Assembly (NCBI RefSeq): GCF_900115155.1
Contig: NZ_FOVM01000003.1
Coordinates: 148,747-212,746 of the forward strand
From: Mycetocola miduiensis
GTDB lineage: Bacteria; Actinomycetota; Actinomycetes; Actinomycetales; Microbacteriaceae
Reading direction: 5' to 3'
DNA: 64,000 nt
The position numbers were made by a program, and so were the translations under genes. Positions 4,752 to 31,055 of this stretch are shown piece after piece; within the stretch, counting starts at the first letter, position 1, and each line of letters begins with the position of its first letter. The notes under the pieces are model-generated. The model saw only the letters and a program-made list of their open reading frames with translations, had not been told where the DNA came from and made no database searches.

Positions 4752-6635
4752 TCATGCCGTGAAAATCGGCCTGAAGAACGCCGCGAGTTCGTCGGTTGCC
4801 GTCAGCGGCAGCACGTTGGCGACATACTGGTCCGGCCGGACGACGACGACCGCACCGCCTCTGTCGATCCCGCGAAGCTCAAAGATGTTCCGCGCCGGAA
4901 TGGCGGAATACACCTTCTCGTAGTCGATCAGCTCGAACGGGCCGACCCTGGGCAAAAACGTCTCTGGAACTCGGCCGATATCGAGTCCGGTGTGGTCCTG
5001 CTGGTAGACGACCTTGACGTCGAAGACACTGTCGATGTCGGCGTCTTTAGGTGTGTGGACGATGAGGGGCGATTCCGGTGAAGTCCGAAGCCACTCGGCC
5101 CACTCAGCGACTGCCGACGCTTCGCCGGGCGCGGCAGAGTCGGCGAACGCGTAGACCCGCCACCGTCCGTCTGCCCGGTGGTGGTGACCGAGTTCGACCG
5201 GGTTGGTGTCTGAGACGCGAACCACGGGGGCGGACTTGAAACGCTTGCCGATCGGATAGCCGGTCGCCAACGCCCCATGAGTCGCCTCAGCGATCAGCAT
5301 CGACGGTGAGTACTGCGTCATGAAACCAGCGGGGAACTCGGCGGTACTCGTGTAGAACGTCTCCAGCTCGGCCGGGTCCTTGAGCTCCTCCGGCTTGCGT
5401 GCCATGAGGCTCGACCATTCCTTGTCGAAGTCGATGAGGTTTTGCGCGACGACATGGCGCTCAGCGGAATACGTGCTGAGAAGGCTTTCCGGGCTGCGTC
5501 CCTCGAGCACGTGCGCGAGCTTCCAACCCAGGTTGAAACCGTCCTGCATCGACACGTTCATGCCCTGGCCGGCTTTGGCACTGTGCGTGTGGCAAGCGTC
5601 GCCGGTGATGAAGACGCGAGGCGTGCGGGTGCCGAGATCTTCGGGTAGGACATCGTCGAACCGGTCGGTGAGACGGTGGGCGACTTCGTAGACGCTATGC
5701 CAGGCCACGTTCTTCACATCGAGGGTGTACGGGTGCAGGATGTCGTTCGCTTTCGCGATGATCTCCTCGATGGTCGTGTTCCGGATCGCTCCCTTGTTGT
5801 CGGCAGCCACCTCACCGAGGTCGACATACATCCGGAAAAGGTAGCCACCCTCGCGAGGAATGTGCAGGATGCTCCCAACTTCCGACTGGATGGCGCACTT
5901 GGTTCGGATGTCAGGGAAGTCGGTGACGGCGAGGACGTCCATGACACCCCAGGCGTGAAACGCCTGGTCGCCGGCCATCGTGCACCCGATCGCCTGGCGC
6001 ACACCACTGCGGGCGCCGTCAGCGCCGACGACGTACTTGGCGCGGACCACGCGCTCGCCTCCTTCGCTGTCACCGGCGGGCTGACCGAGGGTCACGGTGA
6101 CCGGATAGTCGCCATCGCCGGTCACCTCCAGCCCGCGGAACTCGTATCCGTAGTCCGGCTTCATGCGGGTCGGCGAGTTGGCCATCACTTCTGCGAAGTA
6201 GTCAAGGACGCGAGCCTGGTTGACGATGAGATGCGGGAACTCACTGATGCCAGTGGGGTCGTCGTCCGCGCGCGCATGGCGAACGATCCGCGACGGGTCG
6301 GAGGGGTCAGGCTTCCAGAAGGCCATCTCGGTGATGCGATACGCCTCAGCGATGATCCTTTCGGCGAACCCGAACGCCTGGAACGTTTCGACGCTGCGGG
6401 CCTGGATGCCATCGGCCTGGCCGATCGCAAGACGGCCGCCTCGGCGCTCGACGATGCGGGTTGTGATGCCGGGGAACTGCGACAGCTGCGCGGCCGTGAT
6501 CATGCCTGCGGGCCCGGTTCCGACGATGAGAACGTCGACCTCGGCAGGAAGTTCATCGGGGCGGTCGATACCCACCCCTGCAGCTGGCTGGATTCGCGGA
6601 TCTGTGGACACATATCCGTGGTGGTGGAACTGCAC
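4752..6635 (-). CDS. FAD-dependent aromatic-ring monooxygenase (TfdB/MobA type)
   Basis: A 627-residue class A flavoprotein hydroxylase. Motifs are the GTGPAG dinucleotide fold (39-44), the DG motif ADGARSG (205-211) and the FAD-binding GDACHTHSAKAGQGMN (345-360). A C-terminal thioredoxin-like domain (about 460-627) is typical of phenol 2-monooxygenase and 3-hydroxybenzoate 4-monooxygenase. These enzymes add an ortho hydroxyl group to a phenol using NAD(P)H and oxygen. Length and the C-terminal domain fit the MobA/PheA group; the substrate is inferred as a hydroxybenzoate or phenol. A GAGGA ribosome site precedes the ATG. The promoter carries the candidate IclR box. Confidence 0.88.
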   Translation of the reverse strand: MQFHHHGYVSTDPRIQPAAGVGIDRPDELPAEVDVLIVGTGPAGMITAAQLSQFPGITTRIVERRGGRLAIGQADGIQARSVETFQAFGFAERIIAEAYRITEMAFWKPDPSDPSRIVRHARADDDPTGISEFPHLIVNQARVLDYFAEVMANSPTRMKPDYGYEFRGLEVTGDGDYPVTVTLGQPAGDSEGGERVVRAKYVVGADGARSGVRQAIGCTMAGDQAFHAWGVMDVLAVTDFPDIRTKCAIQSEVGSILHIPREGGYLFRMYVDLGEVAADNKGAIRNTTIEEIIAKANDILHPYTLDVKNVAWHSVYEVAHRLTDRFDDVLPEDLGTRTPRVFITGDACHTHSAKAGQGMNVSMQDGFNLGWKLAHVLEGRSPESLLSTYSAERHVVAQNLIDFDKEWSSLMARKPEELKDPAELETFYTSTAEFPAGFMTQYSPSMLIAEATHGALATGYPIGKRFKSAPVVRVSDTNPVELGHHHRADGRWRVYAFADSAAPGEASAVAEWAEWLRTSPESPLIVHTPKDADIDSVFDVKVVYQQDHTGLDIGRVPETFLPRVGPFELIDYEKVYSAIPARNIFELRGIDRGGAVVVVRPDQYVANVLPLTATDELAAFFRPIFTA

Positions 6636-15081: not shown

Positions 15082-17372
<2,291 letters not shown>

Positions 17373-17383
17373 GAAGTATATGT

Positions 17384-17408
17384 TTGCACTTCCTGCATTG
17401 GAGTGCAA
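17384..17408. promoter_or_regulatory. Candidate TetR operator
   Basis: TTGCACT (17384-17390) and AGTGCAA (17402-17408) form a perfect inverted repeat with an 11-base spacer, just upstream of the TetR gene. A third TTGCACT lies at 17357-17363. TATACT (reverse strand, 17375-17380) between them is a plausible -10, so binding would block the promoter. Confidence 0.55.
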
Positions 17409-19495: not shown

Positions 19496-20065
19496 CTAGC
19501 TGAGGATCGAGATGGCTTCCTCGGCCCAGGCGATCCGGTGGGTAGCGGAGTCGATCAGGTAGTCGAACACGTGAGTCTTGAGGTTCACGATCCGGGCATG
19601 CTCAGCAGGGTCACGGCGCTGCAGTCGCTCCCGAATGAGCGGCGTGTCGGCGGCAGCGAGTCGCGCCCGGTGTGCCGCCCACTGTTCCCGTCGCTCCTCG
19701 ATCTGGGTGATGTGCGCCCGGAGGACGGATTCCGCCTCAGCGGGCGGGATCATGTCGAGGAACAGGGTCTGCAGCAGAAACGCATCGCGCACGTTCGGTT
19801 CGGCGTGCGGTTCTGCAAGCCAGTGGCGGAGCTCGAGAACGCCCGAATCGGTGATCGAATACGAGGTGCGCTTCAGCTTGCTGCCTCGCACCTGCTCCTC
19901 CCCCGTGATCAGGCCGTCTGAGGCCATCCGCGTCAGCAGCGGGTAGATCTGGCTTTGCGGCGCGGTCCACACCCATCGGGCCGTTGACTCGAAGAACTGG
20001 GTGAGCTCATAACCGCTCATCGGACGCGCTTCGAGCACGCCCAGCACGGCATACTGCAGGGACAT
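19496..20065 (-). CDS. PadR-family transcriptional regulator
   Basis: A regulator of 189 residues. The winged helix (SLQYAVLGVLEARPMSGYEL, then QSQIYPLLTRMASDGLI) occupies about 1-80. A C-terminal helical dimerisation domain of the Vir_act_alpha_C type (about 95-180) follows. The ATG at 20063-20065 is preferred over 20072-20074 because TTAGGA then sits 8 bases upstream and the protein starts MSLQY as most family members do. PadR proteins usually repress phenolic-acid catabolism. This one is divergent from the extradiol dioxygenase unit and has a matching operator in the shared promoter. Confidence 0.9.
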   Translation of the reverse strand: MSLQYAVLGVLEARPMSGYELTQFFESTARWVWTAPQSQIYPLLTRMASDGLITGEEQVRGSKLKRTSYSITDSGVLELRHWLAEPHAEPNVRDAFLLQTLFLDMIPPAEAESVLRAHITQIEERREQWAAHRARLAAADTPLIRERLQRRDPAEHARIVNLKTHVFDYLIDSATHRIAWAEEAISILS

Positions 20066-20087
20066 GGGCATCATCCTAACTCGAAAT

Positions 20088-20124
20088 ATGTCTCAATTGA
20101 CATTTCTACTCATACATGTAGTCT
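20088..20124. promoter_or_regulatory. PadR operator and promoter of the aldolase-dioxygenase-tautomerase unit
   Basis: ATGT-CTCAATTG-ACAT (20088-20103) matches the ATGT-N8-ACAT dyad described for PadR of Bacillus. It overlaps TTGACA (20097-20102), a consensus -35, which is followed after 16 bases by TAGTCT (20119-20124) as -10 for the rightward genes. Bound PadR would therefore cover the -35. Confidence 0.65.
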
Positions 20125-20149
20125 AGTTCTGTTCTACAGAGTAGTAAGG

Positions 20150-20824
20150 ATGAGCGTGACCACAGACCCCCAGGCGGCACTGCTTGACGCAGCGGCCGTC
20201 GTCGCCGGCGCCGGACTGACCGACGCATTCGGCCACCTCTCCATGCGCACGGCGACGAACGAATGGATGATCACCCCACCGGTGGCCCTGTCCGCACTCA
20301 CTGCGGACCATCGGTTCAGCCACTTCTCCCCCGGCGCTGACGAACTGCCGGCCGCCGCCCCCAAGGAGGCATGGATCCACCTTGCACTCGCCGAGTCCCG
20401 GCCGGAGATCGGAGCGATCTGCCGGGCACAGCCTCCCGCCGTTGCCGCCCTCGTCGCTGCCGGCCAGCCGGTCCTGCCGCTGAACGGGCACGGTTCGTTC
20501 CTCGGCGAGAGCGTTCCGGTTTACGACGATTCCCGCCTCATTCGCGACGCCGCCAGCGCTTCGGCGGTGCGCGACACGATGGGCACCTCGAACGCCATCA
20601 TCCTCCGTGGCAACGGCGCGGTCACGGTCGGCTCGGACCTTGCCAGTGCCGTCGCCCTGATGTGGGTGTTGGAGAAGACCGCAGAACTCAACCTTCGCGC
20701 GCTTGCCGCCGGCACGCCGCATCCGCTGCCGGCAGACGAGCAGTCCTGGTGGCGGGAGCGTGCCACCGAACTGCTGCCCAGAATTTACAACTACCTCACC
20801 CACACCTACCGAAAGGGTCAATGA
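20150..20824 (+). CDS. Class II aldolase/adducin-fold protein, possible ring-cleavage-product decarboxylase (CmtD/DhbB-like)
   Basis: A 224-residue protein with the class II aldolase fold (AFGHLSMR at 26-33, PKEAWIH at 71-77, ILRGNGAVTVG at 151-161). In L-fuculose-phosphate aldolase Zn is held by Glu73, His92, His94 and His155. Here Glu73 is kept, but 92-94 is RAQ and 155 is Asn, so a canonical zinc site is absent. Its pairing with an extradiol dioxygenase resembles cmtC/cmtD and dhbA/dhbB, where this fold decarboxylates the carboxylated ring-cleavage product. That role is inferred from context. AAGGA lies directly on the ATG at 20150, so GTG 20156 may be the real start. Confidence 0.75.
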   Translation: MSVTTDPQAALLDAAAVVAGAGLTDAFGHLSMRTATNEWMITPPVALSALTADHRFSHFSPGADELPAAAPKEAWIHLALAESRPEIGAICRAQPPAVAALVAAGQPVLPLNGHGSFLGESVPVYDDSRLIRDAASASAVRDTMGTSNAIILRGNGAVTVGSDLASAVALMWVLEKTAELNLRALAAGTPHPLPADEQSWWRERATELLPRIYNYLTHTYRKGQ

Positions 20825-21729
20825 TGATCGAAATCACCGACATCGCCTACGTGCGATCCGGGTCTGCGGATGTCGACGCTGCCGTGCGTTTCGCCGTGGA
20901 CATCGTCGGAATGCAATACGCCGGCAATGACAACGGAGTGCACTACCTGCGTGCCGACCACCGCCACCACTGCCTCGCCTTCGTCGAAGGAGAGGCGGGC
21001 GTGCTCAGCTCCGGCCTGACTCTGAAAGACGACGACGCACTGCGACTCGCCGAGACCGAACTCACTCTGGCCGGCGTCAACGTCGTGCGTGGCACCGCCG
21101 AAGAGGCGCGCTCCCGCCGTGTCAGCAGTTTCATCAGCTTCGACGACCCGTGGGGCAACCGCTTCGACCTCGTGGTCGGCCAGGTCCATGACGCCGATAC
21201 GGTGCACTGGGGCAGGCAGGCCGGCATCGTCGAGTTCGGTCACCTCTGCGTCGATGCTCCGGATGTGAGGGCGGCGTACGAATGGTGGAGCTCGCTGTTC
21301 AACATCAAGATCAGCGACTGGATCGGTGACTGGGCGGCGCTCATGCGCTTCGACCCGGTGCACCACAAGCTCGCCGTGTTCCGCGGCAGCGAGCCGGGAC
21401 TGTGCCACATCAACTTCCAGGTCGAATCGATCGACGACGTCATGCGGAGCTGGAACTTCCTGCTCGAGCAGGGTGTCGAGATCGAGCAGGGCCCCGGCCG
21501 TCATCCGCAGTCCACCGCCATCTTCATCTACTTCAAGGGGCCGGAGGGGCTCACCTACGAGTACTCGTATGGCGTGCGCCTCATCGAGGACGATGCCACC
21601 TGGAAGCCGCGCACGTTCGACCCTCTGCACCCCAAGTCGATCGATATGTGGGGCGGAGTCACCCAGCGTGTGCAGACGCAGAAGCAGATCCGTCGTCCGC
21701 TCGACTCGACCGAATTGCAGGATGCCTGA
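20821..21729 (+). CDS. Extradiol ring-cleavage dioxygenase, two-domain VOC type (CmtC/DhbA-like)
   Basis: A 302-residue type I extradiol dioxygenase. The catalytic C-terminal domain shows the 2-His-1-carboxylate iron ligands: His141 (FGHLCV), His196 (LCHINF) and Glu247 (YEYSYG). These enzymes open catechols next to the diol. The neighbouring class II aldolase-fold protein and meta-pathway enzymes make a carboxycatechol such as 2,3-dihydroxybenzoate or dihydroxy-p-cumate an attractive substrate, but the sequence does not prove it. The start overlaps the aldolase stop (ATG 20821 or 20824), and its stop overlaps the tautomerase ATG, so the three genes are coupled. Confidence 0.83.
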   Translation: MMIEITDIAYVRSGSADVDAAVRFAVDIVGMQYAGNDNGVHYLRADHRHHCLAFVEGEAGVLSSGLTLKDDDALRLAETELTLAGVNVVRGTAEEARSRRVSSFISFDDPWGNRFDLVVGQVHDADTVHWGRQAGIVEFGHLCVDAPDVRAAYEWWSSLFNIKISDWIGDWAALMRFDPVHHKLAVFRGSEPGLCHINFQVESIDDVMRSWNFLLEQGVEIEQGPGRHPQSTAIFIYFKGPEGLTYEYSYGVRLIEDDATWKPRTFDPLHPKSIDMWGGVTQRVQTQKQIRRPLDSTELQDA

Positions 21730-21923
21730 TGCCATTCGTCGAGATCAACGTTGCTGAAGGCCGCAGCGAGGAGCAGTTGCGCGACCTGATGGGTCGCGTG
21801 CATGACGCCATCGAAGAGTGGGGCGCCCCCGGCCAGAGCATCCGGGTGCTGGTCCGCGAGGTTCCTCCGGCGCGGTGGTTGTCTGGTGGGGTCACCCTCG
21901 CGGAGAAGGCAACCTCGACGTAG
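21729..21923 (+). CDS. 4-oxalocrotonate tautomerase family enzyme
   Basis: A 64-residue protein beginning MPFVEINVAEGRSEEQLRDL. After Met removal the N-terminal Pro is the catalytic base, as in XylH/DmpI. The length is typical of the hexameric 4-OT family. It isomerises 2-hydroxymuconate (enol) to 2-oxo-3-hexenedioate, between the semialdehyde dehydrogenase and the decarboxylase, both encoded in the facing operon. The ATG overlaps the dioxygenase stop (TGATG), so translation is coupled. It ends 28 bases before a large inverted repeat. Confidence 0.9.
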   Translation: MPFVEINVAEGRSEEQLRDLMGRVHDAIEEWGAPGQSIRVLVREVPPARWLSGGVTLAEKATST

Positions 21924-21950
21924 CGCTCCCGCTGTGCATAACTTCCGGTG

Positions 21951-21992
21951 ACGCGAAAGCCCCTAATACCAACGTATTCGGGGCTTTCGCGT
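21951..21992. terminator. Long hairpin between convergent catabolic units
   Basis: Two 19-base arms (ACGCGAAAGCCCC... and ...GGGGCTTTCGCGT) pair with a single mismatch around a CAAC loop. It can work as a terminator for both the rightward trio and the leftward operon, although no U-tract follows on either strand, so stem-loop or protein-bound repeat functions are also possible. Confidence 0.6.
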
Positions 21993-22022
21993 TACTGGAG
22001 CGGATGTGGTTGGCACCTGGAA

Positions 22023-22087
22023 CAGGAGATCGCACGATTTTCAGGAGAAAAGCAGCGAAAGCATCCTGATAACCGTGTGATCTCCTG
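22023..22087. repeat. Second long imperfect inverted repeat
   Basis: The 24-base arm at 22023-22046 (CAGGAGATCGCACG...) and the one at 22064-22087 (...CGTGTGATCTCCTG) are complementary except at three positions, with a 17-base spacer. It lies 31 bases from the first hairpin, upstream of the catechol dioxygenase stop. No open reading frame covers it. Confidence 0.65.
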
Positions 22088-22105
22088 CAAATTGTGCGCC
22101 CGCGC

Positions 22106-23068
22106 TCAGCCCCTGAGCACCGGGGTGGCGTGCGAGTGGAACGAGTCGGGTACCGCGAGTCCCCAGGCGGTACCGCGCCCACCCGCCTCTGTGGTCCAGG
22201 TCACGGGCTCGAAGTCGGGCGAGAAGATATGGATGCCGCCGGCGAACACCTCGATCCGGTTGCCGCCCGGTTCGAACACGTACAGGAAGAACCCCTGCGT
22301 GCGGGAGTGCTTGGCCGGCCCGAACTCGAGGAACACCCCGTTCTCCATGAAGATGTCCGCGGCCTTCAGCACGTCGTCGCGGGTTTCAACCGCGTAGGCG
22401 AGGTGATGAAGGCGGCCATCGGTCTGCGCCGGTTCACGGGTGAGGGCGAGATCGTGGGATTTGGTCATCAGGCTGAGCCATGCGCCGACCTCGTTGTCCT
22501 CGGTGGGAACTAGCCGTTCCCTCAGCTTGAAGCCGAGGGCCTCCTCCTGGAAGGCCCGGCTGGCCGCGACATCCGGCACCAGCAGGTTGATGTGGTCGAT
22601 GTGCGCGGCGGCGACGCCGTGCGGGTTGTATCGCTGGGGCTGGTTCGGCAGGTACGGCTTCTGATCGGGAGCCGGGCGGAACTTCTCCGTCTCGAAGTAG
22701 ACCTCCATCGAGTGCCCGCCGGGCGCCATGAAGGAGTACGCCTTGCCGTGACCGATGTCCCCGTCGATCCACCGGCCTTCGATTCCCCGTTCGGTGAGCG
22801 CAGCCACCCGTCGTTCCAGCCCCTGTGGGCTGCTCGCGCGCCAGGCGACGTGGCCGAGTCCTGCCTCCGGCGATGCCGTGAGTTTGAGCGAGGTGAGCAC
22901 GTCGTCGTTCCACGCCCGGAGGTATACGGAGTCCGCGGTCTCGGCGACCGGGTACAACCCGTATACCTCCGTGAAGAAGGCTGCTGACTTCTCGAGGGTC
23001 GGCGTCAGCAATTCGGTGTGGCCGAGCTGGGCGACGTCGAAGATCGGCTCGCGGTAGACCGACGTCAT
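22106..23068 (-). CDS. Catechol 2,3-dioxygenase
   Basis: A 320-residue two-domain type I extradiol dioxygenase. Iron ligands are visible as His159 (IDHINL), His222 (RLHHLAY) and Glu273 (NRIEVF). The size and the C-terminal block GGNRIEVFAGG fit catechol 2,3-dioxygenases that yield 2-hydroxymuconic semialdehyde, the substrate of the dehydrogenase encoded just upstream. The ATG at 23066-23068 gives the standard N-terminus; a longer frame runs into the dehydrogenase gene. It is the last gene of the leftward eight-gene operon, starting 4 bases after the dehydrogenase stop. Confidence 0.88.
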   Translation of the reverse strand: MTSVYREPIFDVAQLGHTELLTPTLEKSAAFFTEVYGLYPVAETADSVYLRAWNDDVLTSLKLTASPEAGLGHVAWRASSPQGLERRVAALTERGIEGRWIDGDIGHGKAYSFMAPGGHSMEVYFETEKFRPAPDQKPYLPNQPQRYNPHGVAAAHIDHINLLVPDVAASRAFQEEALGFKLRERLVPTEDNEVGAWLSLMTKSHDLALTREPAQTDGRLHHLAYAVETRDDVLKAADIFMENGVFLEFGPAKHSRTQGFFLYVFEPGGNRIEVFAGGIHIFSPDFEPVTWTTEAGGRGTAWGLAVPDSFHSHATPVLRG

Positions 23069-23072
23069 GGCG

Positions 23073-24545
23073 TCAGTGCGCTCCGGACAGCACGACAGGC
23101 GGGTGCGCCGCCGGTCGTACGAGCTGCATGACCACGGCCTTCGGTTCGGTGAAGAACTCGCGGCTGAAGTTGCCGCCTTCGCGGCCGACACCGGATGCTC
23201 CGACGCCGCCGAATGGTGCACGCAGGTCGCGGATGAAGAAGCAGTTCACCCAGACAGTTCCGACCCGCAGCGAACCAGAGACGCGGTGCGCTTTGACGAG
23301 GTTTTCGGTGAACAGCATCGCGTTCAGTCCGTACGGGCTGTCGTTGACCTCGTGCACGACCTCGTCTTCGGAGTCGAACGGCGTGATCGTGACGATCGGT
23401 CCGAAGATCTCTTCACGCTGGTGCTTCGCGTCACGGTCGAGACCGGTCACCACGGTTGGCTTGACCGTCCAGCCGTCCCCGAGGCCGCCGGTGACACGGG
23501 TTCCGCCGACCTCTTCGATGGTGTCGAAGTAGCCGCGCACCTTCGTGTAGTGCTCCTCGCTCGCGAGCGGGCCGATCTGGGTCGCCGGATCCTTGGGGTC
23601 GCCGATCACCATGGCATCCGCGGCGTCGGTGAAGCGCTCGAGGAACTCGTCGAAGATGGGACGTTCGACGTAGATCCGGCTGCCGGCGAGGCAGACCTGG
23701 CCGGCGTTTGTGAAGATGGCGCGGATCGACCAGCTGACCGCGTTGTCGAGGTCGGCGTCGGCGAACACGACGTTTGCGCCCTTTCCGCCGAGTTCGAGGC
23801 TGACCGGGGTGAGGTTGGCACTGGCGGCGCGGGCGATGATCCGGCCCGTGTTGGATTCGCCGGTGAACGTGATGCGGTCGACGTCGGGGTTCTCGGTGAG
23901 CGCCTGGCCCACAGAGTCCGGGCCGAATCCGTGGACGACGTTGAAGACCCCGGCCGGGATGCCTGCCTCGAGGGCGAGGCGTGCGAGGATGGTGGCGGAA
24001 ACCGGCGTGTCTTCGGCTGGCTTGAGGACGACGGTGTTGCCCCACGCGAGCGCAGGAGCTACCTTCCAGCTTTCGAGCATCATCGGGAAGTTCCACGGGG
24101 CGATCGCGGCGACGACGCCGGCTGCCTCGTAGCGCGTGTAGGTGTGGTGGCCGGAGTCCATCGGGAGAACGTCGGCGGGGCTGAGGTGCGCGTGATCGGC
24201 AAAGAAACGGAAGTTCTGTGCGGTGCGTGCAACGTCGTTGCCGAGGCTCTGAGTGATCGGCTTGCCCATGTCGCGGGTGTCGGCCATTGCGAGTTCCTCG
24301 CCGTGCTCGAGAATCAGATCGGCGAACTTGTTGATCAGGTCGCGGCGCTGGCCTGCCGTCATCCGGGGCCATGGGCCCTCATCGAATGCTCGACGGGCGG
24401 CGGCGACGGCGAGGTCGGCGTCGGCTTTGGCGCCGAGGGCGATCTCCGCCCACGGCTCGCGGGTGTAGGGGTCGATGCTCGGGAAAGTCTCCCCCGAGAT
24501 GGAGGCGATCTCCTGGCCATCGATGATGTGACCGAATCTCTGCAT
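23073..24545 (-). CDS. Aldehyde dehydrogenase, probably 2-hydroxymuconic semialdehyde dehydrogenase
   Basis: A 490-residue NAD(P)-dependent aldehyde dehydrogenase. IAPWNFPMM (148-156) and FTGESNTG (227-234) bind cofactor, Glu251 is the base in LELGGKGAN, and Cys285 is the nucleophile in AGQVCLAGS. Family members of this length act on betaine aldehyde, lactaldehyde or ring-cleavage semialdehydes. The adjacent catechol 2,3-dioxygenase, decarboxylase and hydratase point to 2-hydroxymuconic semialdehyde (DmpC/XylG role), which gives 2-hydroxymuconate for the tautomerase. ATG at 24543-24545. A strong hairpin separates it from the preceding substrate-binding protein gene. Confidence 0.87.
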   Translation of the reverse strand: MQRFGHIIDGQEIASISGETFPSIDPYTREPWAEIALGAKADADLAVAAARRAFDEGPWPRMTAGQRRDLINKFADLILEHGEELAMADTRDMGKPITQSLGNDVARTAQNFRFFADHAHLSPADVLPMDSGHHTYTRYEAAGVVAAIAPWNFPMMLESWKVAPALAWGNTVVLKPAEDTPVSATILARLALEAGIPAGVFNVVHGFGPDSVGQALTENPDVDRITFTGESNTGRIIARAASANLTPVSLELGGKGANVVFADADLDNAVSWSIRAIFTNAGQVCLAGSRIYVERPIFDEFLERFTDAADAMVIGDPKDPATQIGPLASEEHYTKVRGYFDTIEEVGGTRVTGGLGDGWTVKPTVVTGLDRDAKHQREEIFGPIVTITPFDSEDEVVHEVNDSPYGLNAMLFTENLVKAHRVSGSLRVGTVWVNCFFIRDLRAPFGGVGASGVGREGGNFSREFFTEPKAVVMQLVRPAAHPPVVLSGAH

Positions 24546-24567
24546 GGCCTGGTGCCTTTCGTGGTGT

Positions 24568-24595
24568 GCCGGGCGGACGGTCCCGCCCGCCCGGC
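24568..24595 (-). other. GC-rich hairpin between the substrate-binding protein and dehydrogenase genes
   Basis: GCCGGGCGG (24568-24576) and CCGCCCGGC (24587-24595) pair perfectly around a 10-base loop. It lies inside the operon, right after the substrate-binding protein stop, with no T-run. Such elements often stabilise or partly terminate the transcript so that the binding protein is made in excess. Confidence 0.55.
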
Positions 24596-24609
24596 GGATT
24601 GTGAAGTGT

Positions 24610-25629
24610 TTACTTGCCTGGGACGTAGACCATCGCGTCGAGGTCCACGGGAGCGGGAATCGCGCCCTGGTCGACCATGATCTCGTTCCAGACCTCGAGG
24701 TTCTCGGCCTTCGCCGATCCGGCGACCCATTCAGGGAGCATGATCTTGGCAGCGAGCTCAGGGGTGGTCTTGCTGTAGGTCGGAACGATCTCACGAGCAG
24801 CGTCGGGGTTCTCAGCGAGCAGTGCGTTCGCCTTCTCCAACGCGCGGATGAACGCGGCGGTTGTGTTTGGGTTCGCCTTCACGAAGTCGGCGGTCATGCC
24901 GAGGCCGGAGAGCGGAACGCCAGCGGTTGGGCCGGAGAAGTTCGCGAAGAGCTTCTTGGCGCCGGCTTCGTTCGCAGCGGTCTGGAACGGCTCAACCAGC
25001 CACACGGCGTCGACGCCACCCGACTGCAGGGTCGGCACCATGTCGGGGAACGGCAGCTCGAGGAACTCGACCTTGCTCACATCCATGCCGGCTTCTTCCA
25101 TGAGCACCTTGATGGTGAGCTCACCGGTGTTCTTGAGCGTGTTGACGGCGACCTTCTTGCCTTCGAGGTCCTCGATGGACTCAATGCCAGAGTCCGCCTT
25201 GACGTAGACGCCGTTGCTCTCTTCGTTGCCACGAACGCCCTCGGCGACGATGTTGATGCCGACGCCTCCGCTCTGTGCGAGCAGGAACGAGGGGTAGGTC
25301 GCGAATGCAGCCTGCATGTCGCCGGCGATCATTGCGGGGACCGCGGCGGCCCCGCCCTGCGCGGGCTGCGCAGTGACGTCGAGGCCCTCGTCTTCGAAGA
25401 AGCCTTCTGCGATGGCGATGAAGACGGATGCCTGGTCGGCGACTGGCGTGATACCGACGAGCAGTTCCGTGGTCTCCGGCTTGCCGTCGCCTGCCGGCGC
25501 CGGGGCGTCGTCAGCGGGTGCTGCTGCGCTTCCTGCCGAGCATGCGGCGAGACTGAGCGCCAGGGCAGAGGCTGCGGCGACGCCGAGCCAGGTCTTTTTG
25601 GTGCGAACTGTCAGGGATGTGATGGGCAC
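24610..25629 (-). CDS. ABC transporter substrate-binding lipoprotein (NitT/TauT type)
   Basis: A 339-residue lipoprotein with signal peptide and lipobox SLAAC (acylated Cys30), then an Ala/Pro-rich linker. The SsuA/TauA-like periplasmic-binding fold follows: LLVGITPVADQASVFIAIAE, GFFEDEGLDV, and EGKKVAVNTLKNTGEL. This family binds nitrate, sulfonates, taurine, pyrimidine precursors or aromatic acids. Placement within a meta-cleavage operon suggests a benzoate- or phthalate-like acid. It is followed by the ABC ATPase-first order typical of the type: on the transcript it comes after two permeases and the ATPase. Confidence 0.9.
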   Translation of the reverse strand: MPITSLTVRTKKTWLGVAAASALALSLAACSAGSAAAPADDAPAPAGDGKPETTELLVGITPVADQASVFIAIAEGFFEDEGLDVTAQPAQGGAAAVPAMIAGDMQAAFATYPSFLLAQSGGVGINIVAEGVRGNEESNGVYVKADSGIESIEDLEGKKVAVNTLKNTGELTIKVLMEEAGMDVSKVEFLELPFPDMVPTLQSGGVDAVWLVEPFQTAANEAGAKKLFANFSGPTAGVPLSGLGMTADFVKANPNTTAAFIRALEKANALLAENPDAAREIVPTYSKTTPELAAKIMLPEWVAGSAKAENLEVWNEIMVDQGAIPAPVDLDAMVYVPGK

Positions 25630-25675
25630 GTTTCCTCCTTGAATAGTGCGGTGCTTGTTGGTGGTGCGGGGTTTG

Positions 25676-26473
25676 TCAGGCGACGTCGGCCACCGGGATG
25701 GTGACGTCGTCGCTCTTGGGATGACGGATGAGGCGGGCTACCTCGCCGCGCAGACGAATGAACTCGGGATCTTCCTTGGTCTCGATCTGGTCGCGGTTGT
25801 CCGACAGGGGGATGTCGAGGGTGGTGACAACGAATGTGGGCGGCTTGGAGAGGACGACGACCCGGTCGGCGAGGTACACGCTCTCGTCGATGTCGTGCGT
25901 AACGAAGAGGATGGTCATGTTGAATTTCTTCTTCACCGAGAGCACGAGGTCCTCGAGGTCTTCCCTGGTCTGCGCATCGACGGACGCGAACGGCTCGTCC
26001 ATCAACAGGATTTTCGGCCGGTAGGCCAGCGCACGCGCGATGGCGACGCGCTGCTGCATGCCGCCTGAGAGCTGGAACGGGAAGCGATCTTCGAAGCCGG
26101 TGAGGCCGACTGCCACGAGCGACTCAGACACGCGGGCGTCGAGGTCGGCCTTGCTGAGACCGAGCCGCTTGAGCGGGAAGCGCACGTTGGACTCCACACT
26201 GAGCCACGGGAATAGCGAACCGCGGTAGTCCTGGAAGACCATTGCGAGTCCTTCTGGGACGGATGTGATCTCGTTACCGAGGAAGGTGAGGTCACCCCCG
26301 GTGGGTCGCATGAGCCCTGCCATCGTGCGCAACAGGGTGGTCTTGCCGCAGCCGGAGGGTCCGACGATGGAGACCAGCTCACCTGGCTCGACCGCGAACG
26401 TGATGTCCTTCAGCGCCAGGTGCGCCTTCGCGCCCGTGCCGTAGGTGTGGGTGAGGTGTTCGATGTTCAGCAT
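25676..26473 (-). CDS. ABC transporter ATP-binding protein (NitT/TauT type)
   Basis: A 265-residue ATPase. Walker A is GPSGCGKTT (about 38-46), the signature is LSGGMQQR (about 140-147), Walker B ILLMDEPFASVD follows (about 161-172), and the H-loop is THDIDE. The sequence pattern is that of NrtD/SsuB/TauB. It energises uptake with the two upstream-encoded permeases and the downstream binding protein. It starts 16 bases after the second permease stop. Confidence 0.94.
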   Translation of the reverse strand: MLNIEHLTHTYGTGAKAHLALKDITFAVEPGELVSIVGPSGCGKTTLLRTMAGLMRPTGGDLTFLGNEITSVPEGLAMVFQDYRGSLFPWLSVESNVRFPLKRLGLSKADLDARVSESLVAVGLTGFEDRFPFQLSGGMQQRVAIARALAYRPKILLMDEPFASVDAQTREDLEDLVLSVKKKFNMTILFVTHDIDESVYLADRVVVLSKPPTFVVTTLDIPLSDNRDQIETKEDPEFIRLRGEVARLIRHPKSDDVTIPVADVA

Positions 26474-26489
26474 GAATTTTCCTTACGGA

Positions 26490-27347
26490 CTAGGCGGTTT
26501 CGCGACCTGAGCTGCGCTGCCAGGCGAGGATGCGACGCTCAATAACGGTGAGCAAGGTGTTGAGAAGGAAGCCGATGATTCCGAGCAGCACGATCCCGGC
26601 CCACATGTCGGGGAATCCGAAGCCACGCTGGGCCTGCACGATCGAGAAGCCGATACCGCTGGAAGCGGCCACCATCTCGGAGATCACCATGAGGATCAGT
26701 CCGAGTGAGAGGCTGGTGCGCACGCCGGCGAGGATCTTCGGGGCGGCGCCCGGAAGCACGATTCGCTTCAGTCTGCTGACGAAACTGATCCTGAACACCG
26801 TGGCGGTTTCGTACTTCAGTTCTTCGATCGAGCGCACGCCGTCGATGGTGTTCAGCAGAATCGGCCAGGCCGTCCCGAAGGCGATCAGCAGGACGCGCAT
26901 CTCGTCGCCAGTGCCGAACAGCACAAGGAAGATCGGGATGAGTGCTGGCGGGGGTACCGCCCGCAGGAACTGGATGATCGGGTCGACATAGTCAGCGAAC
27001 TTGCGGCTCAGCCCGATCGCGACGCCAAGGGAGATCGCAAGCACGACCGAGATCGCAAATCCGAGCAGCACGCGGCCCATGCTCGGCAGCACATCGTTGA
27101 GCATGCTCGGCGTGAGCACACCGTTCGGACCGGGCAGCCAGAGCAGCGCGGCCCGTTCGAAGATTCGGATCGGCTGGGGGAAGAACGGCGAAGGGAAGGC
27201 CATCGTCGCCAGTTGCCACAGAGCGAGCAGGACGGCGAGGACGATCCAGCGCAGCGCGAACCGGCTCCACCACTGGCGCCGGGCGGACTGCGGCTCGCGA
27301 CTGGCGCGCGGCCGGTTGGCGGTGGATATCGATGCTGTGAGTGCCAT
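26490..27347 (-). CDS. ABC transporter permease (NitT/TauT type)
   Basis: A 285-residue inner-membrane permease of the BPD_transp_1 family, with about six helices. The cytoplasmic EAA-like loop (FRISFVSRLKRIVLPGAAPKIL, cited as two parts FRISFVSRLKRI and VLPGAAPKIL) contacts the ATPase. N-terminal residues 1-25 are basic and polar. Its ATG overlaps the last base of the other permease gene (27347), so the two are coupled. The paired permeases probably form a heterodimeric channel. Confidence 0.92.
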   Translation of the reverse strand: MALTASISTANRPRASREPQSARRQWWSRFALRWIVLAVLLALWQLATMAFPSPFFPQPIRIFERAALLWLPGPNGVLTPSMLNDVLPSMGRVLLGFAISVVLAISLGVAIGLSRKFADYVDPIIQFLRAVPPPALIPIFLVLFGTGDEMRVLLIAFGTAWPILLNTIDGVRSIEELKYETATVFRISFVSRLKRIVLPGAAPKILAGVRTSLSLGLILMVISEMVAASSGIGFSIVQAQRGFGFPDMWAGIVLLGIIGFLLNTLLTVIERRILAWQRSSGRETA

Positions 27348-28147
27348 TACGCCACCCCCTCCTTCTTCCAGGCGAAAATCTTGCGCTCGATGGCCACCAG
27401 AACGAAGTTGATGAGCATCCCGAGCAAACCGGCCACGATGGTTCCGGCGAACACGAGCGAGGTGTCACCGCCACCGGAGCTGATTCGAAGGATGTACGAG
27501 CCGATACCGCTGGCGGAGCCGGCGAGCAACTCGGCACTGATGGTCACAATCAACGCGATCGCCGCAGAGATCCGCACGCCGGTCGCCGCGAGCGGTGCGG
27601 CGTACGGCAGGCTGACGCGGGCGAGGATGCCGACGCGGCTGAGCCGGAACGTGCGGGCCGTCTCCTTAGCGACGGGGTCGACATCCCGGACTCCATAGAC
27701 GGTGTTGAAGAAGATCGGCCACAGCGAGGCGTAGACCACGAGAGCGATCTTCATATCGGTGCCCTGACCAAAGACCAGGATGGCGAGAGGGATCAGCGCG
27801 ACCGAGGGAATCGGCCGCATGAACTCGACGACCGCTGACGACGCCTCGTAGGCGATCCGGAACGAGCCGAGCACCAGGCCGAGCGGCACGGCGACCAGGA
27901 TGGCGATGCCGAGTCCGATCGCCCATGCGGTCAGTGTTGAGCCGACGTCATGGAGGAACTCCGGGTCCACGATGAGGCCGGCCGTGTCGAGCAGCACCCG
28001 GGACATCGGCGGAAGGATGTTTCCGGGGATGATTCCGAGCCGGGAGACCGACTCGGCCAGGATGAGGAGAACGGCGACACCGATCAGGCCGCGGGTGACC
28101 TTGGGGGTCACCCCCCGGCGGACGGGCACGGTGGCGACGGCGCTCAT
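27347..28147 (-). CDS. ABC transporter permease (NitT/TauT type)
   Basis: A 266-residue permease homologous to the following one, with six predicted helices. Its coupling loop is FRLSRVGILARVSLPYAAPL. Most systems of this type use one permease gene twice, so two distinct permease genes suggest a heterodimer or a recent duplication. The start (ATG 28145-28147) overlaps the decarboxylase stop by four bases, which places the transporter inside the catabolic transcript rather than beside it. Confidence 0.92.
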   Translation of the reverse strand: MSAVATVPVRRGVTPKVTRGLIGVAVLLILAESVSRLGIIPGNILPPMSRVLLDTAGLIVDPEFLHDVGSTLTAWAIGLGIAILVAVPLGLVLGSFRIAYEASSAVVEFMRPIPSVALIPLAILVFGQGTDMKIALVVYASLWPIFFNTVYGVRDVDPVAKETARTFRLSRVGILARVSLPYAAPLAATGVRISAAIALIVTISAELLAGSASGIGSYILRISSGGGDTSLVFAGTIVAGLLGMLINFVLVAIERKIFAWKKEGVA

Positions 28148-28938
28148 GCCGACCTCCGCACGGGGACGACGATCTGGCCGAGCGAGGTGAATTCAACGGA
28201 CACTTCGTCGCCGTCCGAGATGAACACGGCGTCGGTGATGCCACCCGTCAGAACGATCGAGCCGGCTTCGATCGCCTCGCCGCGAGCCGCGAGTGCGTTC
28301 GCCGCCAGCGCCAGCGCCTCAGCGGGGTGCCCCTGAACGGCGGCACCGGTCGCCGTGTCGACGACCGCGCCGTTGATGCGCAGCACGCAGGCCTCGAGCG
28401 CGAGGTCGAGGCCGTCTGGGGACACCGACTTCGCGCCGACAACGAATCGGGCGCTGGAAGCGTTGTCGGCCACCACGTCGGGCATCGCAAAGCTGAAGTC
28501 GCGGTATCGACTGTCAATCACTTCGAGCCCGGCGTGCACCGAGGCGACGGCACGCATGGCAGTCGCGGCGGTGACCCCCGGGCCCTCCAGCCGTTCTCCG
28601 AGCACGAAGACGATCTCGGGTTCGACTCGTGGGTGGATGAGCTGGTCGAGCACGATCGGAACCCCGGCCTCGAGCACCATCTTGTCGGTGATGACCGCGG
28701 TCAATGGTGAGTCGATGCCCATCCGCTTCTGCTTGGCGCGCGAGGTGAGGCCGAGCTTCACACCCACGACGGTGTGACCGTCGGCTTTCTTGCGTTCGAT
28801 CAGGACCTTCTGCGCGTCGTAGCCGGCTTTGAGGTCGAGCCCCGGCCACTCGTCGGTGATCCGGCCGCGGTCGGTGCGGTTGGATTCGGCGTCGAGCAGG
28901 ATGTCGGCGACCTTCTCGATCGTCCAGTCTGCGGTCAT
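28144..28938 (-). CDS. 4-oxalocrotonate decarboxylase (DmpH/XylI type)
   Basis: A 264-residue member of the fumarylacetoacetase-like hydratase/decarboxylase family. VGVKLGLTSRAKQKRMGIDS (about 57-76), HPRVEPEIVFVL with the metal-binding glutamates, LEVIDSRYRDF, and TGAAVQGHPAEALA fit the decarboxylase branch (SPxxxxxTDKM rather than QPDFG). It converts 2-oxo-3-hexenedioate to 2-oxopent-4-enoate with Mg2+. It usually forms a complex with the hydratase, whose gene overlaps it by four bases (ATGA at 28935-28938). The ATG is at 28936-28938. Confidence 0.87.
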   Translation of the reverse strand: MTADWTIEKVADILLDAESNRTDRGRITDEWPGLDLKAGYDAQKVLIERKKADGHTVVGVKLGLTSRAKQKRMGIDSPLTAVITDKMVLEAGVPIVLDQLIHPRVEPEIVFVLGERLEGPGVTAATAMRAVASVHAGLEVIDSRYRDFSFAMPDVVADNASSARFVVGAKSVSPDGLDLALEACVLRINGAVVDTATGAAVQGHPAEALALAANALAARGEAIEAGSIVLTGGITDAVFISDGDEVSVEFTSLGQIVVPVRRSA

Positions 28939-29738
28939 ACTGCGTCCTCCTCGGATGCTGCGGTGAAGCGGGCGCGCACGTCGCCCAGGTGGGCGAACGT
29001 GGCGGTGAAGACGTCGCCAGGGGCGATGGGGACGGCGGCGGTGATCGAGCCGGCCATCACGACCGAGCCCTCCTCGAGCGTCTGACCGAGCGATCCGAGC
29101 TTGTTCGCCAGCCACAGCACGCCGTTCAGCGGGTTCCCGAGTACTGCGGCACCGGCCCCGGTGGCGACGACGTCGCCGTTCCTGGTGAGTATGCAACCGG
29201 CGAGACCGAGGTCTGCGACGTCCAGCCGGACGGGGCGATTACCGAGCACAACGGCGCCGGAGGATGCATTGTCGGCGATGGTGTCGGCAAGCTTGATTTT
29301 CCAGTCGGCGACGCGCGAGTCGATGATCTCGAGTGAGGCGATCGCGTAGTCGACGGCTCCGATCACGTCGACCAGGCTGAGTCCCGGTCCGCGCAGGTCA
29401 TGCTTCAGTACGAAGGCGATCTCCGGTTCGATTTTCGGGCTGATGAACGCAGCCGCGTCGACAGCTGAGCCGTCAACGATCATGTCGCTGAAGAGGTGAC
29501 CGAAGTCGGGCTGGTCGACGCCCAGCTGGCGCTGCATCGCGAGCGAGGTGAGGCCTACCTTGTAGCCGCTCACACGTCGACCCGAGTTCTTCCACCGCTC
29601 GACCTGGTGGAGCTGAATACGGTAAGCGTCCTCGAGCTGCAGGTCGGGGTGCGCGTCCGTAAGCGGAGCGACGGGCATACGTGTCCCGTAGGCCTCGTGC
29701 AGGTGTCCGCCGAGGGCGGCGATGTCGATGTCGTTCAA
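28935..29738 (-). CDS. 2-oxopent-4-enoate hydratase (DmpE/MhpD type)
   Basis: A 267-residue hydratase. YKVGLTSLAMQRQLGVDQPD followed by FGHLFSDM, then PKIEPEIAFVL with metal-ligand Glu residues, LEIIDSRVADWKIKL, and DNASSGAVVLG are diagnostic of the vinylpyruvate hydratase branch. It adds water to give 4-hydroxy-2-oxovalerate. The start is a TTG at 29736-29738 with GAGG 7 bases upstream; no ATG is available nearby. It is the first gene of the leftward operon, with the promoter in the 110-base gap after the GntR gene. The next enzymes (aldolase, acetaldehyde dehydrogenase) are not in this window. Confidence 0.88.
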   Translation of the reverse strand: MNDIDIAALGGHLHEAYGTRMPVAPLTDAHPDLQLEDAYRIQLHQVERWKNSGRRVSGYKVGLTSLAMQRQLGVDQPDFGHLFSDMIVDGSAVDAAAFISPKIEPEIAFVLKHDLRGPGLSLVDVIGAVDYAIASLEIIDSRVADWKIKLADTIADNASSGAVVLGNRPVRLDVADLGLAGCILTRNGDVVATGAGAAVLGNPLNGVLWLANKLGSLGQTLEEGSVVMAGSITAAVPIAPGDVFTATFAHLGDVRARFTAASEEDAV

Positions 29739-29788
29739 GATCGGACCTCGTTGTCAGGGAATCGTCAGCGATTCCGGAGCGGCAGAAC

Positions 29789-29817
29789 CATATTATTCAT
29801 CATGTCGAATATGTCTA
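29789..29817 (-). promoter_or_regulatory. Operon promoter with candidate GntR operator
   Basis: On the leftward strand TAGACA (29812-29817) and TAATAT (29790-29795) form -35 and -10 elements with a 16-base spacer. CATATT-N13-AATATG (29789-29813) is an inverted repeat covering the promoter. CATGTCGAATA (29801-29811) resembles CATGCTGAATA at 30615-30625 upstream of the gntR gene. Confidence 0.45.
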
Positions 29818-29847
29818 TAGGGATGGGCGAGTTTCCCTATGTTGTCG

Positions 29848-30591
29848 TCAACTCATGGTGTCGGTGAGTCGCTCCGAGTATGGGGCATGTCGCTCGGCCG
29901 CGATGCGTGCGCGTCCGGGGCTGCCGGACGCGATGGCATCCACAAGCTCCCGATGCAGTTCCCAGTTGTCCCGCCATGAGTTCCTGAAATGGGGGTCGGC
30001 CGCAACGTTCTTCAGTGCCTCGCGGGCGGTATCGATCAAGGAGATGTAGATCGTGCGGAGCATCTCGTTGGGCGACATCCGCGCGATTTCCTCGTGCAGG
30101 TGCCAGTTCTGCCTGAGGTATTCGGCTGGGTCATCCTGAAGCTCGCCCATTCGTGCCAGAATCGCTTCCAAGCGAGCCAGTCCTTCGCGATCTGCACGGA
30201 TAGCGGCGTGTGCGGCCAGCGGAATCTCCAGCGCGTTGCGAATCTCGAGCGCGTCAGACACCGACAGCGAGTTGCTGTCCAGAGCCAGGATCAGGTGGCT
30301 GAGACGAAGCTGGGCGGACTGCTCCGCCACAAAGATGCCACCCTGCGGGCCCGGGCGCGTCTCGACCAGGCCGCGACTCTCCAGCAGGCGAATGGCTTCG
30401 TTCAGGGTGGAGGCTGCCACTCCGAATTGAGCGCGCAGGTCGGATTTCCTCCCCAGGCGCGCTCCCGGAGTCGGATGCTGCCGCTTGATCAGCTCGCTGA
30501 CCTGGTGCGCAACAGCCTCCGCCCGCGAGACGTGGTCATTGGTCACCCGGTCGAAGGTTGGGCTGACGTCACCGCCGAAGGACTCGTTCAT
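29848..30591 (-). CDS. GntR-family regulator, FadR/FCD type
   Basis: A 247-residue regulator. The winged helix (about 22-95: KSDLRAQFGVAASTLNEAIR, then LLESRGLVETRPGPQGG) precedes an all-helical FCD domain (about 105-235). The FCD domain has metal-binding histidines (NWHLHEEIARMS, ELHRELVDAI, ERHAPYSE). FCD regulators respond to organic acids. It is 110 bases upstream of the meta-cleavage operon on the same strand, with a separate operon promoter, so it probably controls that promoter and perhaps its own. Confidence 0.88.
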   Translation of the reverse strand: MNESFGGDVSPTFDRVTNDHVSRAEAVAHQVSELIKRQHPTPGARLGRKSDLRAQFGVAASTLNEAIRLLESRGLVETRPGPQGGIFVAEQSAQLRLSHLILALDSNSLSVSDALEIRNALEIPLAAHAAIRADREGLARLEAILARMGELQDDPAEYLRQNWHLHEEIARMSPNEMLRTIYISLIDTAREALKNVAADPHFRNSWRDNWELHRELVDAIASGSPGRARIAAERHAPYSERLTDTMS

Positions 30592-30728
30592 AATTTCAAA
30601 ATCGTAACATTGAACATGCTGAATAGGAAGAGAAGATTATCCGCGCGTCCTGCTACCCCGTTGATGGCGCGGCTGCAGGAGTTCATTCTGGGTGAAACGG
30701 CACTGCGAGACTGAGCAAGGAGCGAACG

Positions 30729-31055
30729 ATGCCTCTCTACCTGACGAAATTCAGCTACACGGCCGAGACCTGGGCGCGGTTGGCGAGCAACCCCGAAGAT
30801 CGCCGGAAGGCGGCTCAGACCTACATCGAATCGGTCGGCGGACAACTCCACGGGTTCTGGTACGCCTTCGGCGACCACGACGGTTACACCCTGTGGGAAG
30901 CTCCGGACAACGTCTCGATGGCTGCAGTTGCGCTTGCGATCAACGGGGGCGGCGCCATGAGTTCCATCCAGACAACGGTGCTGCTGACGGTGGACGAAAC
31001 GTTGGAAGCGCTGAGCAAGGCGCGACAAATCAGTTACCGCCCGCCGGGCGCCTAG
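30729..31055 (+). CDS. GYD-domain protein
   Basis: A 108-residue GYD-domain protein: a ferredoxin-like fold beginning MPLYLTKFSYTAETWARLA, with GDHDGYTLWEAPDN in the middle and a C-terminal helix. GYD proteins are dimeric alpha/beta-barrel-like proteins of unknown function, often near oxidoreductases. AAGGAGCGA precedes the ATG by 3-9 bases. It is divergent from the GntR gene and might share a regulatory region with it, but the function is unknown. Confidence 0.85.
   Translation: MPLYLTKFSYTAETWARLASNPEDRRKAAQTYIESVGGQLHGFWYAFGDHDGYTLWEAPDNVSMAAVALAINGGGAMSSIQTTVLLTVDETLEALSKARQISYRPPGA

Follow-up and report, generated by a model that had tools for sequence, protein, structure and literature searches.

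A conserved island predicted to import and cleave a carboxylated catechol, most likely 2,3-dihydroxybenzoate, in the actinobacterium Mycetocola miduiensis

Among the described systems closest to the locus analyzed in this work are the dhb system, the opa cluster of Pseudomonas sp. PTH10, and the cmt pathway for p-cumate. The 2,3-dihydroxybenzoate route proceeds through extradiol cleavage, loss of the carboxyl group, 2-hydroxymuconic semialdehyde and a dehydrogenase branch, and it employs type I extradiol dioxygenases, namely DhbA and OpaC (PMC6362003). In Pseudomonas reinekei MT1, the ring-cleavage product is decarboxylated by the class II aldolase DhbB, and Pseudomonas sp. PTH10 converts phthalate to 2,3-dihydroxybenzoate (PMC6362003). 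Here, we analyzed a stretch of 64,000 nucleotides from M. miduiensis (contig NZ_FOVM01000003.1, positions 148,747 to 212,746; “the window” below), which contains at positions 19,496 to 30,591 an island of ring-cleavage, lower-pathway and importer genes. We consider it likely that this island serves to import and catabolize a catechol that bears a carboxyl group adjacent to one of its hydroxyls, with 2,3-dihydroxybenzoate as the most likely substrate.

The extradiol dioxygenase and the class II aldolase decarboxylase of the dhb system (PMC6362003) have putative counterparts in the island, and the dhb system and the host genome share a 2-hydroxymuconic semialdehyde (HMS) dehydrogenase, tautomerase, decarboxylase, hydratase, aldolase and acetaldehyde dehydrogenase. 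Unlike dhb, the island is split into two parts that face each other and adjoin PadR and GntR regulators, carries importer genes inside its operon and has an added catechol 2,3-dioxygenase gene, while the host DmpFG pair is encoded at another chromosomal place. The opa cluster is similar in the 2,3-dihydroxybenzoate route and in its co-located transporter genes; its Rieske phthalate dioxygenase, metallo-hydrolase-type decarboxylase OpaD and tripartite ATP-independent periplasmic (TRAP)-type transporter genes are absent from the island (PMC6362003). The cmt pathway of Pseudomonas putida F1 and Burkholderia xenovorans LB400 shares the CmtC/CmtD order, cleavage followed by decarboxylation, and differs by its p-cumate dioxygenase and CmtE hydrolase (PMC5224996). 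The island as a coherent, predicted catabolic unit is well supported by comparison, and it would be the published pathway in a new form; the built-in importer, the optional catechol 2,3-dioxygenase and the histidine-less aldolase-fold clade are features of modest surprise.

The first-pass annotation of this DNA described a rightward trio and a leftward eight-gene operon, and gene calls and Pfam matches bore out the genes, coordinates and strands, as well as the confinement of the tautomerase to the trio within the window. The two parts are convergent and bracketed by the two regulators. Enzymes are named below after their best-fitting families or models.

19496..20074, minus strand: PadR-family regulator, divergent from the trio (PF03551, 56.5 bits, cut-off 27)
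20097..20121, plus strand: predicted promoter/PadR-operator block TTGACATTTCTAYNCATACATGTAG, 25 bases, before the trio
20150..20824, plus strand: ALD, class II aldolase-fold protein (PF00596, 72.9 bits)
20824..21729, plus strand: EDO1, VOC-type extradiol dioxygenase (PF00903; TIGR03213, 112.6 bits vs cut-off 366)
21729..21923, plus strand: TAUT, 2-hydroxymuconate tautomerase (PF01361, 54.3 bits, cut-off 22; NF002571, 50.7 vs 55)
21943..22000, no strand: hairpin between trio and operon (minimum free energy -44.3 kcal/mol)
22106..23068, minus strand: C23O, catechol 2,3-dioxygenase, at the operon's 3' end (TIGR03211, 313.4 bits vs cut-off 320.2)
23073..24545, minus strand: HMSD, 2-hydroxymuconic semialdehyde dehydrogenase (best model TIGR03216, 534.8 bits vs cut-off 693)
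24610..25629, minus strand: SBP, NMT1/SsuA-type substrate-binding lipoprotein with LAAC lipobox (PF09084, 115.4 bits; TIGR01728, 130.5 vs 163.5)
25676..26473, minus strand: ATPase of the ATP-binding cassette (ABC) importer (PF00005, 120 bits), syntenic in 5 of 8 loci
26490..27347, minus strand: PM1, ABC permease 1 (PF00528, 79.5 bits)
27347..28147, minus strand: PM2, ABC permease 2 (PF00528, 65.9 bits), with a 4-base overlap with DEC
28144..28938, minus strand: DEC, 4-oxalocrotonate (2-oxo-3-hexenedioate) decarboxylase (best model TIGR03218, 261.7 bits vs cut-off 350.6)
28935..29738, minus strand: HYD, 2-oxopent-4-enoate hydratase (best model TIGR03220, 277.8 bits vs cut-off 408.8)
29795..29810, minus strand: predicted GntR operator 1 ATTCGACATGATGAAT, upstream of the operon
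29848..30591, minus strand: GntR/FCD-family regulator (PF07729, PF00392)
30609..30624, minus strand: predicted GntR operator 2 ATTCAGCATGTTCAAT, upstream of gntR

All 13 proteins score above the gathering scores of the expected Pfam families, including the NMT1/SsuA-type SBP, two permeases and ATPase that make up a NitT/TauT-type importer. The HMS dehydrogenase, tautomerase, oxalocrotonate decarboxylase and hydratase of the dhb pathway are all represented as best NCBIfam models with sub-cut-off scores. Its type I extradiol dioxygenase corresponds to EDO1, a PF00903 protein with presumed metal ligands H140, H195 and E246 that are invariant in 6/6 sequences and with 3b59 as the nearest PDB sequence; EDO1 is a probable 2,3-dihydroxybenzoate 3,4-dioxygenase in the role of DhbA. 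TAUT possesses Pro1 and Arg11, functional residues of this family. Adjacent genes overlap by one base (ALD/EDO1, EDO1/TAUT and PM2/PM1) or by four (HYD/DEC as well as DEC/PM2), and the other neighbouring operon genes are separated by 4-64 bases. The GC content (0.649 in the island vs 0.650 in the window) gives no sign of a foreign origin.

To compare relatives, EDO1 and SBP were searched at E <= 1e-60 in 398 genomes of the family, and gene presence was recorded within the stretches read around EDO1 at eight loci: the window (host genome G000, with contigs C4 and C15 mentioned below), G089, G358, a Cryobacterium metagenome-assembled genome (MAG), Kribbella kalugense, Nocardiopsis prasina, N. 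metallicus and G721. When the whole window was compared at the DNA level with 39 kb around the island of G089, a member of another genus, only 19505-21910 and 23073-30632 matched; the same block stands there between non-homologous flanks, and a partial block was found in six further loci. At the level of sequence comparison, the island block is a real unit beyond chance, because G089 matches the island and nothing else of the window. EDO1 occurs in 4 of the 398 genomes (and in 1 of 6 from the genus of the window), SBP likewise in 4, and three genomes have both. Across the eight loci, EDO1 is accompanied by ALD in 8, HMSD in 7, TAUT in 7, DEC in 6, HYD in 5, the importer in 5, DmpG in 4 (the MAG copy being cut by the contig end) and C23O in 1. 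At both Nocardiopsis loci, GntR and the importer are divergent from ALD-EDO1, an arrangement that is the strongest link between the importer and ring cleavage. The proposal that the two parts are one conserved unit including the importer is therefore upheld by synteny in relatives.

In the proposed pathway, the ABC importer would take up 2,3-dihydroxybenzoate, and EDO1 would cut the ring at 3,4 to 2-hydroxy-3-carboxymuconate-6-semialdehyde, from which ALD would remove the carboxyl group to give 2-hydroxymuconic semialdehyde. HMSD would oxidize the latter to 2-hydroxymuconate, TAUT would form 4-oxalocrotonate, DEC and HYD would yield 4-hydroxy-2-oxovalerate, and DmpG with DmpF would split it into pyruvate and acetyl-CoA. 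By family, all enzymes of the published route are encoded in the host genome. The DmpG/DmpF pair, noted earlier as missing and worth a genome search, was found outside the island at G000:C4:488323-490274, both proteins over their cut-offs, beside an IclR-like gene; these three have 75-90% identity to their counterparts in G245 and G089. DmpG exceeded the model cut-off in 5 of the 13 genomes tested (G000, G089, G358, Kribbella and G245) and lies in pieces at contig ends in the Cryobacterium MAG; it is inside the island in G358, Kribbella, G721 and the MAG. G245 has the pair and no EDO1 match, therefore the pair is not tied to the island. At a locus of G245 (L062, G245:C57, same genus), IclR-DmpF-DmpG-HYD plus DEC without EDO1 form another meta-cleavage lower pathway.

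The choice of substrate depends on the remaining enzymes of the host. It has three Rieske proteins, namely QcrA, a protein resembling ferredoxins and a fusion of ThiO-like type, none of them the alpha subunit of a ring oxygenase (G089, G358 and G276 also have three Rieske proteins each, by count alone), and for this reason the ring probably carries its hydroxyl groups when it is taken up. p-Cumate and phthalate, two substrates suggested for growth tests at first, were rejected as unlikely on the same ground, and also because the island encodes the dehydrogenase branch, with no hydrolase of the CmtE type among its genes, to which that search was confined. Another carboxylated catechol, such as protocatechuate cut at 2,3 or 2,3-dihydroxy-p-cumate, would likewise give a carboxylated meta-cleavage product in need of a decarboxylase, with the same later steps, and a Caballeronia plasmid cluster with relatives of EDO1 (45%) and ALD (32%) does contain a Rieske oxygenase and an alpha/beta hydrolase. 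We find such a substrate improbable here, as the host has PcaGH, the ground on which protocatechuate was rejected as the main substrate, and lacks a Rieske ring oxygenase; in addition, the decarboxylated product of p-cumate passes to the hydrolase CmtE (PMC5224996), in place of which the island encodes a dehydrogenase. Short-chain dehydrogenase/reductase genes near EDO1 (both Nocardiopsis, G721 and Kribbella) were considered as 2,3-dihydro-2,3-dihydroxybenzoate dehydrogenases and dismissed, that model not being among the best 25 for each.

It is also conceivable, though rather unlikely, that the importer brings in an aromatic acid that is not a catechol (salicylate or 3-hydroxybenzoate), which a flavoprotein hydroxylase encoded elsewhere converts to 2,3-dihydroxybenzoate, so that the island is only the lower half of the route. 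The host does have two strong FAD_binding_3 hydroxylases, one in the window (4752-6635, minus strand) and one on C15, and in Pseudomonas sp. PTH10 2,3-dihydroxybenzoate arises from phthalate (PMC6362003). However, neither the island of the window nor the block that G089 has in common with it contains a flavoprotein hydroxylase (family scans covered the flanks of the other loci only in part), and the window hydroxylase is 13 kb off and scores 1051 bits with NF006144, a model for phenol 2-monooxygenase with a cut-off of 560. This hydroxylase could supply catechol or protocatechuate. Given the pathway order and gene content, 2,3-dihydroxybenzoate, already named in the first-pass annotation, stays the best candidate.

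C23O, the last gene of the operon, was listed at first among its members, and a classical phenol-type catechol operon with C23O as the key enzyme and the trio and importer as chance neighbours could be imagined around it, all the more as no intradiol catechol dioxygenase besides PcaGH was found in the host. This is very improbable: C23O is absent from the other 7 island loci, in which trio and importer operon are co-conserved without it, and from the stretch common to the window and G089, so that the C23O-centred interpretation was rejected. Across the 13 genomes searched, the host and 12 others, with those of the eight loci among them, every other C23O match has at most 32% identity. Judged from this distribution, C23O is not a conserved key enzyme but an addition at the operon's 3' end, which in the host would let catechol enter at 2-hydroxymuconic semialdehyde. 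It is likely, not proven, the sole catechol-cleaving enzyme of G000, since the genome has 23 VOC matches and LigB-type dioxygenases were outside the search. In G089, its position is taken by a FAD_binding_4/BBE oxidase gene (L028, 15751-17103), and this slot may take different peripheral genes. The C23O relative on C4 of the host is HpaD; next to it (L027, 1576-8209) are genes resembling HMSD (47%) and HYD (39%), and together they probably encode a homoprotocatechuate route of their own.

ALD was suspected from the start of handling the lost carboxyl group, and by its fold it is of the kind to which DhbB, the decarboxylase of a ring-cleavage product, belongs (PMC6362003). Its AlphaFold2 model (AF2; predicted local distance difference test score, pLDDT, 91.8) has as nearest solved fold 2z7b, 3-hydroxy-2-methylpyridine-4,5-dicarboxylate decarboxylase (Z 28.9, root mean square deviation 2.1, 220 residues aligned). 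Class II aldolase/adducin metalloenzymes bind their metal by the histidines of an HxH..H motif. ALD does not have these three histidines: relative to 2z7b, they are replaced by R92, Q94 and N155, and E73 is retained. In an alignment of 17 sequences including that of the window (9 of the 12 plasmid records found were taken in), R in the first and N in the third position occur in 15, of which 8 have Q in the middle and the remaining 7 have M, L or I there; the other two (L131 and L132) keep HxH and NHG. For two of the 15, L127 and L128, the annotation within 3.5 kb lists ring-hydroxylase or dmpFG genes and no extradiol dioxygenase, and L130 is on an unannotated record. The residue pattern is shared with other cluster-borne homologs, the likeness to DhbB being by description. 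ALD is thus a probable 2-hydroxy-3-carboxymuconate-6-semialdehyde decarboxylase in the role of DhbB/CmtD, and the pattern suggests that R/N-type ALD proteins decarboxylate without metal. A cluster on Tistrella mobilis pTM2 (L129), a proteobacterial analogue of the island, has two VOC genes, an R/N-type class II aldolase, an HMS dehydrogenase, a FAH-family gene and a transporter gene, and differs by a DctP-type TRAP transporter and an HpaI-type aldolase. On a Sphingopyxis macrogoltabida plasmid (L128), an R/N-type gene immediately follows dmpG and is itself followed by a gene for an AMP-binding protein, and this decarboxylase clade may there serve a different pathway.

SBP homologs with more than 50% identity adjoin EDO1/ALD only, within the searches made: they occur in three of the 398 family genomes, all in the island (the fourth match, 42%, lies elsewhere), and at both Nocardiopsis loci. 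Among 394 genomes of the class (E <= 1e-50), G000 alone has such a protein, and 22 others have paralogs of 33-41%. The importer accompanies the EDO1/ALD pair in 5 of 8 loci. Transfer of a ligand from the 33-42% paralogs was dropped, because their 12 neighbourhoods are mixed (judged by eye from open reading frame beginnings, with no family scan), and the predicted SBP structure was set aside (pLDDT 42.9). Uptake by ABC importers has been reported for phthalate (PMC13040137).

Two plasmids carry related transporters in the vicinity of genes for aromatic or heteroaromatic compounds. That on pRHL1 of Rhodococcus jostii RHA1 (L134, 6260-9691) likewise combines an SsuA-family-like SBP with an ATPase and two permeases, and genes for aromatic acids, of terephthalate-like type, are close by; it differs in the SBP, with only 25% identity, and in the absence of EDO1, ALD, TAUT, DEC and HYD matches in the 49 kb read. 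By its location, it is probably PatDABC. On pLDW-10 of Arthrobacter crystallopoietes (L036), a 37% relative of SBP adjoins a xanthine dehydrogenase-family operon, and GntR and PaaI-type genes precede the transporter, which suggests heteroaromatic uptake. Three further paralogs (L117, L119 and L126) are near a FAD monooxygenase-like gene (by eye), between repeated similar gene sets. Our literature searches, limited to open-access papers and so not proof against reports elsewhere, turned up neither an island for 2,3-dihydroxybenzoate in actinobacteria nor a class II aldolase decarboxylase that works without metal, and nothing that connects a NitT/TauT importer with an extradiol dioxygenase. We tentatively put forward a wider claim, less assured than the substrate assignment: the locus could be a self-contained actinobacterial island for scavenging 2,3-dihydroxybenzoate with the first dedicated NitT/TauT-type importer for this acid, its decarboxylase belonging to a metal-free class II aldolase-fold subfamily in actinobacteria and proteobacteria, in which arginine and asparagine in place of histidines would bring about decarboxylation of the ring-cleavage product.

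The hairpin on which trio and operon converge is very stable (z -8.45, 0 of 200 shuffles equally stable), and other GC-rich hairpins, folded without shuffle control, are at the corresponding place in G089 and G358. It was absent from the matches of a simple promoter/terminator scan, which found no more sites than in shuffles. We regard the hairpin as a likely bidirectional terminator, and because both parts converge on it, trio and operon most likely form two transcripts. The proposed joint expression holds for the importer with the decarboxylase, as their gene overlap suggests, and not for the trio with the operon, given the convergence, the hairpin and the probably different regulators.

PadR orthologs stand beside the trio in G089 (81%), G358 (60%) and the Cryobacterium MAG (cut by the contig end), with relatives of 52% and 56% near EDO1 in Kribbella and G721. 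The pattern of the 20097-20121 block, drawn from G000, G089 and G358, matches all three fully and elsewhere in the 14 stretches scanned has two matches only, with 6 mismatches each (L013 and L060); the block is absent from the matches of the promoter scan. An ATGT-N8-ACAT PadR box, with a window match at 20088 only and none in the G089 and G358 stretches, was dropped for this block. GntR orthologs stand beside the importer in G089 (78%), N. prasina (53%) and N. metallicus (55%); in G358, none was recognised and an IclR-like gene is at that place. G089 has a pair of palindromes at the same two places as the window, and the operator pattern drawn from these four sites has one further window match (54040, 2 mismatches); ten mononucleotide-shuffled versions of the window gave a single match. 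When as many as 2 mismatches are allowed, the pattern has no match in G358 or N. metallicus and one in N. prasina, with 2 mismatches, at the SBP gene start. Operator 1 overlaps a promoter-like site at 29817-29790 (1 found vs 1.3 expected). The trio is probably under the control of PadR, and the operon for the importer and the lower pathway under that of GntR; we infer the block and both palindromes to be their operator sites.

Among the neighbouring genes, an EmrB-type major facilitator superfamily exporter gene lies about 2 kb left of the island (15082-17408, minus strand) beside a regulator whose sole NCBIfam match is a TetR-type model. Immediately to the right, a GYD-domain protein (30729-31055, plus strand) is not in the block shared with G089.

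Several observations weigh against the proposed function. None of ALD, EDO1, TAUT, C23O, HMSD, SBP, DEC and HYD reaches its curated NCBIfam cut-off, though their best models fit, and that of ALD is 3,4-dihydroxyphthalate decarboxylase (65.3 bits vs a cut-off of 200), a different reaction. Both Nocardiopsis loci retain the importer, ALD and EDO1 and are without DEC and HYD in the stretches read, and their genomes are without DmpG above the cut-off, a lack that the proposed pathway does not explain; N. metallicus is also without HMSD and TAUT in the stretch read. No importer was seen in the stretches read of Kribbella and G721. The Cryobacterium locus is on a contig of 4.9 kb only, and a search of that genome for SBP at E <= 1e-60 gave no match. 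The Kribbella ALD has 40% identity and is about 8.5 kb from EDO1, on the opposite strand.

A Pseudomonas strain with the pathway does not grow on 2,3-dihydroxybenzoate, and missing uptake was suspected as the cause (PMC6362003). The R/N-type proteins suggest, in a way that can be tested, that members of a well-studied enzyme fold have lost the metal site, and the importer hints at the kind of ligand that one clade of NitT/TauT-type binding proteins may bind. For some actinobacteria, the island offers a ready hypothesis of how 2,3-dihydroxybenzoate, a siderophore building block and plant acid, may be taken up and used.

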